Shown here: positions 4,996-14,631 of the stretch, piece after piece | Position numbering within the stretch: position 1 is the first letter of the stretch | Layout: every line of letters begins with the position of its first letter | Assembly: GCA_017517145.1 (NCBI GenBank) | Contig: JAFXAJ010000116.1 | Location: 1-37,506, forward strand | Origin: Ruminococcus sp. | Lineage (GTDB): Bacteria > Bacillota > Clostridia > Oscillospirales > Ruminococcaceae | Length of the DNA: 37,506 nt | Reading direction: 5' to 3' | The notes under the pieces: model-generated | Told to the model about the DNA's origin: nothing | Seen by the model: the letters and a program-made list of their open reading frames with translations, nothing else | Database searches by the model: none | Position numbers and translations under genes: made by a program

Positions 4996-5024
4996 TTGCT
5001 TTTTTTCCAATTACATGATATAAT
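4996..5024 (+). promoter_or_regulatory. Sigma-A-type promoter of the ABC-F gene
   Basis: TTGCTT (4996-5001), 17 bases, TATAAT (5019-5024). Transcription should start near 5031, at the left edge of the inverted-repeat leader element. Confidence 0.75.
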
Positions 5025-5031
5025 ATATCTG

Positions 5032-5194
5032 ATATTGCTCCACCAACTAACTCTTGAAGAATTATATGAAGCTTGGGGAGCAAAAGTCAAGGAAGAAAGC
5101 CGAAAGAATACTGCCGTATTGTGAGGCTTTCTGACACAGAATTTTGCTCTCCATGCAAAATAGAAAATTCAAGAGTTAATTGAGGGAGCAATAT
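5032..5194 (+). repeat. Nested inverted-repeat leader element, copy 1
   Basis: A 163-base element matching 12966-13126 at about 94%. Its ends are inverted repeats of about 27 bases (5032-5058 and 5168-5194; core AACTCTTGAA / TTCAAGAGTT). Inside are further nested stems: GGGGAGCAAAA (5075-5085) with TTTTGCTCTCC (5142-5152), AGAAAGCC (5094-5101) with GGCTTTCT (5125-5132), and AATAC (5107-5111) with GTATT (5116-5120). The transcript would fold into one long interrupted hairpin. It fills the space between promoter and ribosome site of the ABC-F gene. It could be a regulatory leader or a MITE-like palindrome; no clear target duplication was seen. Confidence 0.85.
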
Positions 5195-5213: not shown

Positions 5214-6767
5214 ATGAGTATTCTTAATGTTGAACACGTAACCCACGGCTTTGGTGCACGCCAGATTCTGAACGACGCTTCATTCCGCCTCCTCAAAGGC
5301 GAACACGTTGGTCTTGTCGGTGCAAACGGTGAGGGAAAATCCACCTTCCTCAATATCATTATGGGTAAACTTATGCCTGATGAAGGAAAAATCGAATGGT
5401 GCAGACATATAACCACAGGTTATCTCGACCAGTACAGCACCCTTGAAAAAGGCAAGACCATACGTGACGTTCTCCGTGAAGCATTTAATCATCTTTCAGA
5501 ACTTGAAGCCGAAATGATGTCCATGTATGACAAAATGGCTGACTGTTCAGAGGACGAAATGAATGAGCTTATGGAGGAAGTCGGTGAAATACAGAGCATC
5601 CTCGACTACAGCGGTTACTATATCATTGACGCAAAAATTTCTGAATATGCCAACGGTCTCGGTCTTAACGAAATCGGTCTTGACAGGGATGTTTCAGAAC
5701 TTTCAGGCGGTCAGAGAGCGAAAGTGCTTCTCGCTAAGGTACTTCTTGAAAATCCCATGATTCTCATTCTCGATGAACCGACAAATTTCCTTGATGAAAA
5801 CCACATCGCATGGCTGACAAATTTCCTCCAGAATTATGAAAATGCCTTTATTCTTGTTTCCCATGACGTTCCTTTTATGAACAGCGTTATAAATGTAGTA
5901 TATCATGTGGAAAATGCCGTTATGACACGCTATACAGGTGATTATGATAACTTTGTACGTATGTATGAGCTTAAAAAACGACAGATTGAGCAGGCTTATG
6001 AAAAACAGCAGAAGGAAATCGCTGACCTCGAGGACTTTATCGCCAGAAACAAAGCAAGGGTTGCTACTACAAATATGGCGAAATCCAGACAGAAAAAGCT
6101 TGATAAAATGGATAAGATAACTCTTATGCGTGAAAAGCCAAAGCCTGTTTTTTCATTTAAAAAAGCACGTACCCCCGGTCGTGTGGTTATTGACTGCAAG
6201 GATATTGTTCTCGGATATGATGAGCCGCTCACAAAGCCTATTTCAATTCAGGTTGAAAATGGACAGAAAATCGCTATCCGTGGCGTTAACGGAATCGGTA
6301 AATCAACTCTGCTGAAATCTCTCCTCAAACTTATTCCCACACTCTCAGGTACTGTTGAGCATGACCAGTTTGTGGAATACGGATACTTTGAACAGGAGGA
6401 GGAAAGCACAGATAAAACATCCCTTGAAGTAATATGGAACGAATACCCCTCTATGACTAATGCGGAAGTCCGTGCAGCTCTCGCTCAGTGCGGTCTTACT
6501 ACGGAGCATATTACTTCTCAGATGCGTGTACTCTCAGGCGGAGAAAATGCCAAAGTAAGACTTTGCAGAATAATGCTCAGGGAAGTAAATCTTCTCGTCC
6601 TCGACGAGCCTACAAATCACCTCGATGTTGACGCTAAGGAATCCCTGAAAAAAGCTATAAATGACTACAAAGGAACTGTGCTTATTGTAAGCCATGAACC
6701 GGATTTCTATATGGATATTGTTGATACAGTATGGAATATTGAAGAATGGTCTACTAAAATTATATAA
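5214..6767 (+). CDS. ABC-F family ATPase (YkpA/YbiT-like)
   Basis: A 517-residue soluble protein with two ABC ATPase domains and no membrane segments. ABC-F proteins bind the ribosome and act in translation or antibiotic protection. Domain 1 has Walker A GANGEGKST (36-44), signature LSGGQ (163-167) and Walker B ILILDEPT (about 184-191). A charged helical linker follows (about 240-310; many Lys, Glu, Gln). Domain 2 has Walker A GVNGIGKST (about 357-365), signature LSGGE (about 440-444) and LLVLDEPTNHLD. Length and the LSGGQ/LSGGE pair fit the YbiT/YkpA group rather than a known resistance subgroup, but this was not tested. The start ATG 5214 follows AGGAGC. The leader element upstream suggests control after transcription start. 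Confidence 0.92.
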   Translation: MSILNVEHVTHGFGARQILNDASFRLLKGEHVGLVGANGEGKSTFLNIIMGKLMPDEGKIEWCRHITTGYLDQYSTLEKGKTIRDVLREAFNHLSELEAEMMSMYDKMADCSEDEMNELMEEVGEIQSILDYSGYYIIDAKISEYANGLGLNEIGLDRDVSELSGGQRAKVLLAKVLLENPMILILDEPTNFLDENHIAWLTNFLQNYENAFILVSHDVPFMNSVINVVYHVENAVMTRYTGDYDNFVRMYELKKRQIEQAYEKQQKEIADLEDFIARNKARVATTNMAKSRQKKLDKMDKITLMREKPKPVFSFKKARTPGRVVIDCKDIVLGYDEPLTKPISIQVENGQKIAIRGVNGIGKSTLLKSLLKLIPTLSGTVEHDQFVEYGYFEQEEESTDKTSLEVIWNEYPSMTNAEVRAALAQCGLTTEHITSQMRVLSGGENAKVRLCRIMLREVNLLVLDEPTNHLDVDAKESLKKAINDYKGTVLIVSHEPDFYMDIVDTVWNIEEWSTKII

Positions 6768-12914: not shown

Positions 12915-12943
12915 TTGACTAATCAGTTGTTTTGGTGTATAAT
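12915..12943 (+). promoter_or_regulatory. Sigma-A-type promoter of glgA
   Basis: TTGACT (12915-12920), 17 bases, TATAAT (12938-12943). Transcription should start near 12950, shortly before leader element copy 2. Confidence 0.78.
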
Positions 12944-12965
12944 AATAACATAACTTATTGATTCC

Positions 12966-13126
12966 ATTACTCCACCAACTAACTCTTGAAGAATTATATG
13001 AAGCTTGGGGAGCAAAAGACAAGGAAGAAAGCCGAAATAATACTGCCGTATTGTGAGGTTTTCTGACGCTGAATTTTGCTCTCCAAGCAAAACAGAAAAT
13101 TCAAGAGTTAATTTTGGGAGCAATAT
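12966..13126 (+). repeat. Nested inverted-repeat leader element, copy 2
   Basis: About 161 bases, differing from the copy at 5032-5194 at roughly ten positions. The outer AACTCTTGAA / TTCAAGAGTT stem, the GGGGAGCAAAA / TTTTGCTCTCC stem and the AATAC / GTATT hairpin are unchanged. In the middle stem the right arm reads GGTTTTCT instead of GGCTTTCT, turning a G-C pair into G-U and so keeping the fold. It lies between the glgA promoter and its ribosome site, the same position as copy 1 relative to its gene. Confidence 0.85.
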
Positions 13127-13176: not shown

Positions 13177-14631
13177 ATGAAAAACATTTTATTTGCCGCT
13201 TCAGAATGTGTACCATTTATCAAAACAGGAGGTCTGGCAGATGTCTGCGGAGCTTTACCACGTTATATCAACAAGGATGAATTCGATGTAAGAGTTATTC
13301 TCCCTTACTATACCTGCATCCCCCCGAAATTCAGAGATAATTTCAAATACGTCACTCATTTTTATATGGACTACGGTATGCGCAGTGAAAGCGTTCATGT
13401 CGGCATAATGGAATATGAATACAACGGCATACGCTTTTACTTCGTGGATAATGAATATTACTTCAAATGCGATACACCATATTCCTCAGACCTGAAATGG
13501 GATATTGAACGTTTTACTTTCTTCTGCAAAGCCGCTCTTGCTATCCTGCCCGTTATCGGATTCCGTCCTGATATTATCCACTGTCACGACTGGCAGGCTT
13601 CGCTTATCCCTGTATTTCTCCACTCTACTTTTGCAACAAATCCTTTTTTCAGCGGTACAAAGTCTATCATGACTATTCACAACCTTAAATTTCAGGGTGT
13701 ATGGGATATTGAAACATTCAGATTCAATACAGGTCTGCCCGGCTATATGTTCACACCTGATAAACTTGAATTCAAAAAAGATGCTAATATGCTCAAAGGC
13801 GGTCTGGTTTATGCCGACTATATCACTACCGTTTCTGAAACCTATGCCGAAGAAATAAAATATCCTTTCTACGGCGAACAGCTTGATGGTCTGCTTCGTG
13901 CAAGGTCAGCATCTTTGAGAGGTATAGTCAACGGAATTGACTATGATGTCTATAATCCTGCTGATGACAGCCAGATTTACGCAAAATATACTTCAAAGAA
14001 CTTCAAAAAGCAGAAATCTGTCAATAAAAAGAAATTGCAGGCTGAACTTGGTCTCACCGTAGATGAGAATAAATATATGATTGCTATTATATCACGCCTT
14101 ACTGACCAGAAAGGACTTGATCTGGTTAATTATGCAATTGAACGTATTTGCGATGAAAATACCCAGTTTATTATCATTGGCACAGGCGATCCACGGTATG
14201 AGAATATGTTCAGACATTATCAGTGGAAATATCCTGATAGAGTTTCCGCAAATATTCTTTACTCCGATCAGCTCGCCCATAAACTCTATGCCGCAGCTGA
14301 TGCAATGCTTATGCCTTCTCTCTTTGAGCCATGCGGTCTGACTCAGCTTATTGCACTTCGCTACGGTACAATTCCGATTGTGCGTGAAACAGGCGGTCTT
14401 AAAGATACCGTAACTCCCTATAACGAATTTGACGGCACAGGAACAGGCTTCTCGTTCTCCAACTACAACGGCGATGAAATGCTGGGCGCTATCAACTACT
14501 CAAAGAGCGTTTACTATGACCACCGCAAGGAATGGGATTCCATGGTTAAACGTGGAATGGAAGCCGACTTCTCATGGAACAGCTCTGCCCGTCAGTACGA
14601 AGGTATGTATTCGTGGATGATAAACTGGTAA
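13177..14631 (+). CDS. glgA: Glycogen synthase (ADP-glucose type, GT5)
   Basis: A 484-residue cytoplasmic enzyme that adds glucose from ADP-glucose to the growing end of glycogen. The start ATG 13177 follows AAGGAGATGACATT; the frame opening at 13114 lies inside the leader element and is rejected. The N-terminus carries the ADP-glucose site KTGGLADVCGALP (Lys16-Gly-Gly). The GT-B fold shows the HCHDWQASLIP segment, GIDYDVYNP, the AIISRLTDQKGLDL start of the second domain, and the EPCGLTQ motif (384-390) of the nucleotide-sugar site. Length fits the bacterial family. No other glg gene is in the window; the downstream HAD gene begins five bases after the stop. Confidence 0.96.
   Translation: MKNILFAASECVPFIKTGGLADVCGALPRYINKDEFDVRVILPYYTCIPPKFRDNFKYVTHFYMDYGMRSESVHVGIMEYEYNGIRFYFVDNEYYFKCDTPYSSDLKWDIERFTFFCKAALAILPVIGFRPDIIHCHDWQASLIPVFLHSTFATNPFFSGTKSIMTIHNLKFQGVWDIETFRFNTGLPGYMFTPDKLEFKKDANMLKGGLVYADYITTVSETYAEEIKYPFYGEQLDGLLRARSASLRGIVNGIDYDVYNPADDSQIYAKYTSKNFKKQKSVNKKKLQAELGLTVDENKYMIAIISRLTDQKGLDLVNYAIERICDENTQFIIIGTGDPRYENMFRHYQWKYPDRVSANILYSDQLAHKLYAAADAMLMPSLFEPCGLTQLIALRYGTIPIVRETGGLKDTVTPYNEFDGTGTGFSFSNYNGDEMLGAINYSKSVYYDHRKEWDSMVKRGMEADFSWNSSARQYEGMYSWMINW

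Follow-up and report, generated by a model that had tools for sequence, protein, structure and literature searches.

The window, the whole 37,506-nt stretch of Ruminococcus sp. DNA analysed, contains two genes preceded by copies of one palindrome, all on the plus strand. The first gene encodes an ABC-F ribosomal-protection-like protein (5214-6767; NF000355, 395.8 bits against a cut-off of 380) and the second is glgA, for glycogen synthase GlgA (13177-14631; NF001898, 617 bits, cut-off 603). The palindrome is a non-coding element of 161 bp with 26-nt inverted repeats at either end, which set its limits: 5033-5193 for copy 1, a palindromic MITE with a TA-flanked body (5035-5191) and a sister copy for which an empty site exists (below), and 12965-13125 for copy 2. 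The two are 93.8% identical across 161 columns (ten differences), and the first base pair of copy 2 is CA where TA would be expected. In copy 1 the left inverted repeat, TATTGCTCC...CTCTTGAA (5033-5058), is partly like the left end of an IS630-type locus (L128), and the right one, TTCAAGAG...GGGAGCAATA (5168-5193), is common to the right end of that locus. Each copy encloses a conserved core hairpin (5086-5140 and 13018-13072) matched by covariance models R1 and R2, with R2 scores of 69.5 and 61.6 bits, respectively.

A probable promoter for the ABC-F gene, TTGCTT-17-TATAAT (4996-5024, plus strand), was read from the sequence; its weak -35 agrees with the consensus at only three of six bases, and the pattern scan therefore missed it. 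The glgA promoter, TTGACT-17-TATAAT (12915-12943, plus strand), scored 11/12 in the scan, and a similar promoter is present in relatives lacking the element. Promoter-like matches as such are near chance level, at two per leader region against shuffled means of 1.4 and 1.2. With the -10 ending at 5024, usual spacing would place the start of ABC-F transcription at about the first base of copy 1, and from the promoter positions both mRNAs should begin with a 160-nt hairpin or bear one near the 5' end. On the minus strand, the left arm of each copy also holds a promoter-like match pointing out of the element and away from the gene (TTGACT-18-TATAAT, 11/12, at 5061-5090; TTGTCT-18-TATAAT, 10/12, at 12993-13022); 1.2-1.4 such matches per region are expected by chance, and by eye the left-arm TATAAT on this strand is absent from a sister subfamily (T) described below.

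Copy 1 is predicted to fold at -74.9 kcal/mol (z -10.5); shuffled versions average -33.2, and none of 200 reached so low a value. Strong folding is also predicted for the antisense strand (z -8.7), as it must be for a palindrome. The original prediction for this DNA is confirmed at this level. The 163-base element that it described, with a second copy at about ten differences, is present with coordinates within 1-2 bases; the nested stems are recovered in the predicted fold of copy 1; placement between promoter and ribosome site holds for both the ABC-F and the glgA copies; and the downstream genes, said to be unrelated, match profiles for such different proteins as a ribosomal-protection-like ABC-F and a glycogen synthase. 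The consensus promoter with a 17-base spacer was right as to the spacer and the exact -10 in both places; the -35 of copy 1 is weak.

The element is widely dispersed. Whole or shortened copies were found in 40 of 125 genomes of the genus (E up to 0.001), and the end pattern TATTGCTCCNCCAAYTAA is present in 17 of the 18 genomes chosen, with as many as 101 matches in a single genome and none for a backwards control. Of 48 full-length copies, 30 have TA at both ends; counted end by end, it is present on the left in 40 and on the right in 36. The other 18 lack it at one or both ends, some of them having ends too changed for the pattern used. Locus L128, which is in another genome of the genus and not in the window's own, encodes a 348-residue IS630-family transposase (NF033545, 244.5 bits, cut-off 100; DDE_3). 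This gene stops just before a right end identical to that of the element, while the left end of the locus, TATTGATATGCCAATTATCTCTTGAA, matches the element's left end only in part. Many window-type sites are minis of 52-56 nt that keep one arm. The element contains a short internal repeat, GGGGAGCAA, which resembles its right end, so the minis are read as probable deletions across the palindrome.

An empty site for one copy (L103) was found in genome G050, where flanks of 643 and 604 bases, 89 and 90% identical to those of the filled site, are joined. At the filled site the element lies between two TA. The end of the element is similar to the target, so that the two flanks share four bases where they join, and a TA duplication would be the simplest, not the sole, reading of this pair, the one empty site mapped at base level. 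In addition, one locus (L406) has a promoter and ribosome site like those of another (L323) but not its shortened copy. At the glgA position itself, the leaders of three relatives (L290, L291, L293) retain TATAATAATAACAT without an insert. The window copy is absent from 35 upstream regions of ABC-F genes of relatives, of 120 bases each, and BLAST matches to it among 80 ABC-F loci lie elsewhere (L022, L084). By covariance model, two of the 80 (L026, L079) have another core-bearing element at most about 130 bases upstream of the ABC-F gene, in both cases with the core reversed. The glgA leader of one relative (L292) appears to hold a small palindrome of another kind (AAGGCAATACCGCAC...), which would mean that this leader has been hit more than once.

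The element has a short non-coding body with terminal inverted repeats, many dispersed copies, ends common to an IS630 transposase locus (the right the same, the left partly alike), and one mapped empty site that fits a TA target duplication, with TA-flanked copies elsewhere. It is an IS630-type MITE, like RUP of the pneumococcus. From the likeness of the ends, an L128-type transposase is a candidate partner for its mobilisation. The two leaders are very probably the work of such a non-autonomous palindromic MITE, inserted at TA just downstream of two promoters. The original prediction had offered two readings, an undescribed cis-acting RNA or a MITE-like palindrome adopted as a leader. The second is favoured by the IS630-type repeats, the empty site, the dispersal, and a leader bias described below; the first is not supported as regards a dedicated regulator and survives as regards a structured core with no match in Rfam.

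That core, the central 55 nt, recurs in repeats with unrelated outer arms, as was found from matches confined to the element's middle. The ends of core-bearing repeats include TATTGCTCC, TATACTCCCCTCTATTGC, GAGCCTGTTTAG, AGAACCTGTCTTCAC, TATACCAATCCC, GGTTCTCTAAAAACC, TATACTAATTTCA, and GGGTGTGTTGACAC. Core copy numbers and carrier counts are lower bounds, since many copies lie at contig ends. Model R1 matched at least 66 of 247 genomes of the family (at least 41 of 126 genera) and at least 44 of 391 genomes of the class (at least 15 families). R2 matched at least 8 of 348 genomes of the phylum, five of them outside the class, and also five of nine genomes of the genus that had shown no copy of the window element (G007, G008, G009, G012, G014). 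One of these, G012, has at least 28 R2 matches, most of them confined to the model's middle part. In the window's own genome the core has at least 19 places at E up to 1. That genome also holds a second palindromic family, with ends like GGTTCTCTAAAAACC...GGTTTTTAGAGGTTCCC, in which the core occurs about a dozen times (L174-L181, L183-L185, L187, L190; L185 is known from its core only). Repeats about 280 bp long, combining one outer repeat or stem with two hairpin arms, are present in several genomes from other families of the class, and a second, oppositely oriented core match was found in 7 of 29 class-wide loci of this length. Loci L249, L253, L258, L263, and L282 are examples of the two-armed form.

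Beyond these genomes, exact core patterns gave no match in viral contigs; the 55-nt consensus core had one weak match among plasmids (E 0.02) and nine among phage records, unannotated and from human faeces. Rfam 15 at gathering score found nothing in the window, and over 40 other loci only tRNA, rRNA, FMN, cobalamin, and group II intron matches, all away from the element. At a relaxed threshold, four microRNA precursor families and one Salmonella sRNA appeared far below cut-off and were set aside as chance matches to long hairpins. Searches by topic and by six core strings found no description of the core in print, within a coverage to which subscription journals largely do not belong.

Two short helices stacked on each other make up the core, and their internal loops recur in the form C-GCA-G/C-AA-G. 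In 35 distinct cores, picked for diversity among those fetched, 97.1% of 559 cells are paired and 13 of 16 pairs have changed on both sides. An earlier set of 33 cores gave 94.4% paired, 8 of 13 pairs, and a covariation score of 0.346 against 0.148. In 23 of the 35 the inner loop is GCAG facing CAAG; in three it is GAAA facing TGAG or TGAA, with the closing pair changing from G-C to A-T jointly with the loop; and nine have other combinations. The GAAA type occurs 11 times in the 33-core set, where one row mixes the two forms. By RNA parameters, the strand that reads CAAGG first is more stable than its complement in 32 of 35 cores (one reverse, two ties), and by DNA parameters it is so in 26 (two reverse, seven ties); a strand test on G-U versus A-C mismatches gave 11 against 4 (p 0.12).

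A covariance model with a covariation test had been put forward with the original prediction. Covariation is strong in the core (0.530 for the 35 cores, against 0.156 shuffled and at most 0.129 slid), with the caution that template switching perfects quasi-palindromes and can yield compensatory changes without any RNA function. Template switching would however erase internal loops, whereas here they persist, and the core is therefore read as being under selection.

Two features speak for a REP/REPIN-like unit that a Y1 (tyrosine) transposase disperses and on which the IS630 ends are only hitch-hikers: the hairpin has conserved internal loops, and the two inverted cores of the 280-bp elements resemble REP doublets. 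This reading is nevertheless very improbable: a Y1_Tnp match is missing in 12 of 33 core carriers and present in 11 of 24 genomes without a core match, and the IS630 transposase and the flanks agree with the element's ends. Of the carriers' Y1 matches, one (G249) is below the family cut-off. A gene can be absent from a draft assembly, but one of the carriers without a match (G240) is a single contig with 11 core matches. The Y1 transposase was accordingly rejected as the core's partner.

The position of copies relative to genes differs between subfamilies. Loci were fetched by likeness to the window copy, not by position, and the 50 sites of the window subfamily are those among them with non-duplicate flanks and the arm signature. 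The scoring rule asked for a start codon, preceded by a ribosome site, no more than 80 nt away. It classed 30 of the 50 as sense-only, two as antisense-only, two as having such a start on both sides, and 16 as having none. Five rows look misassigned by eye (L110, L114, L146, L148, L171; four among those with none and one among those with both), and at least two of the sense-only rows (L336, L383) appear to have a further promoter between element and gene. The genes downstream of window-type copies are varied, including ABC-F, glgA, and a SpoIIID-like regulator (Pfam, 83.4 bits), with four of the proteins profile-checked and the others assigned by eye. Of the 18 sites of subfamily T, two are sense-only, one antisense-only, one both, and 14 neither. 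Subfamily A (25 sites) has one sense-only, eight antisense-only, one both, and 15 neither, so that its orientation near starts is the reverse of that in the window subfamily.

The other core elements show no such preference. A set of 53 was scored, made up of 52 with other ends and one (L192) with the same, excluding contig-end and two-core loci and leaving shared insertions unmerged. Starts within 80 nt are evenly split, 15 sense and 15 antisense, and stops are divided 19 to 18; with no orientation bias, these are scattered intergenic repeats. Listing positions relative to promoters and start codons, as suggested at the outset, gives a divided answer: copies of the window subfamily are mostly sense 5' leaders, and the 53 others are unbiased.

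Several observations bear on whether the leader acts. Predicted ribosome-site access with the element, with it flipped, and without it is 0.56, 0.50, and 0.55 in one leader and 0.44, 0.45, and 0.45 in the other, and a pattern scan found no terminator-like site in either. Shared insertions evolve at differing rates relative to their flanks. One (L138/L107) is 98.8% identical where its flanks are 73-89% identical; it is squeezed between two genes, and the ribosome site there apparently comes from its right end. Three (L105/L132, L135/L136, L135/L106) evolve about like their flanks, one (L114/L159) gave a mixed result, and one (L119/L161) is faster (75.3%, against 79-98% for the flanks).

A cis-acting regulatory RNA, whether riboswitch, attenuator, or protein-binding leader, of a regulon including the ABC-F gene and glgA would fit the strong preference of the window subfamily for sense 5' leaders, the covarying core, the greater stability of its CAAGG strand by RNA parameters, and the high identity of the L138/L107 insertion. 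It is unlikely when these are set against the balance of the 53 other core elements (15/15 for starts, 19/18 for stops), downstream genes that look unrelated and do not form one pathway, relatives whose leaders lack the element, leaders with no terminator-like site in which predicted ribosome-site access is little changed by removing it, and the lack of an Rfam match at gathering score. Insertions of the MITE into leaders were tolerated and some were probably kept; a specific regulatory role is at most a candidate.

The leader bias could also come from the insertion step, by targeting into the melted start site, and not from retention by selection. Copy 1 begins at about the predicted transcription start, and nine of 32 window-type sites (the sense-only 30 together with L121 and L106) have an exact TATAAT no more than 28 bases upstream, against a shuffled mean of 1.5 (max 7) and two backwards. 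The excess rests on the exact match, because at five or more of six bases it is unclear (21, against 14.0 shuffled with max 22, and 20 backwards). Subfamily T, however, has the same ends and many near-identical copies but only two sense-only and one antisense-only site among 18, and subfamily A has the opposite pattern (1 and 8 of 25). Targeting is a possible but rather doubtful source of the bias.

As an account of MITE insertion, the following steps are suggested. The IS630-type palindrome would insert at a TA just downstream of a promoter. Copies in 5' leaders would be retained where the native ribosome site is left free, with mRNA stability or translation at most tuned. The core would persist through its folded single strand (RNA, or DNA at the replication fork), either because a host factor recognises it or because it shields the element. 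Either a host factor binding the fold or a fold that resists RNase III or palindrome-cutting nucleases may lie behind this persistence, which is offered tentatively. That a single folded module persists below differing ends suggests a cause beyond the transposase. A broader and quite speculative extension is a core-MITE superfamily, in which one folded module has long been carried by non-autonomous elements that swap ends to follow different transposases, as a widespread factor of the Clostridia recognises the folded strand, and in which the window subfamily might have been domesticated as the 5' leader of some thirty unrelated genes.

Among known systems the closest are RUP and BOX of Streptococcus pneumoniae, which like the window element are short, palindromic, non-coding, and dispersed (PMC3049150). 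The ends of RUP resemble IS630-Spn1; inverted repeats pair with each other in predicted RNA; BOX is modular, and one BOX copy is within a 5' leader (PMC3049150). In the part of that account drawn on here, both are reported from S. pneumoniae, with S. mitis named less frequently and other streptococci only rarely, whereas the core of the window element was matched in at least 15 families of one class; a core common to repeats with unrelated ends is likewise not described there for RUP or BOX (PMC3049150). Mobilisation in trans by an IS with like ends, as proposed here, is shared with Nezha and other IS-dependent MITEs, compared by description only (PMC3733652, PMC3049150) and assumed to differ in sequence. 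REP/REPIN with RAYT are similarly high-copy hairpins, sometimes in inverted pairs (PMC6006769, PMC3733652), but the window-type ends are like those of an IS630 locus and, as noted, a Y1 transposase was not found in 12 of 33 carriers. Set against the papers searched, the novelty lies in the core common to these repeats and in the subfamily biased towards leaders. The CORE-SINEs of eukaryotes also have one central domain common to mobile elements with different ends; they are retroposons with unrelated machinery, and the likeness is one of analogy only.

Two puzzling leaders thus come down to an ordinary event, the insertion of a MITE, and a structured module uncatalogued in Rfam 15 and spread over the Clostridia is brought to light. 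A shared core under many ends gives a handle on what non-autonomous elements need, besides transposase ends, to persist. The leader-biased subfamily supplies natural pairs with and without the element for the effects of 5' hairpins on mRNA in gut anaerobes.

Some sites have individual features. A test of whether the inverted-repeat end facing the gene sets the orientation gave five against two, from few resolved cases. In one locus (L319) a shortened copy lies between a stretch that by eye is like a cobalamin riboswitch and the gene start, and in L369, L374, L397, and others, copies with these ends appear by eye to directly follow terminator-like stem-loops with a T-run.
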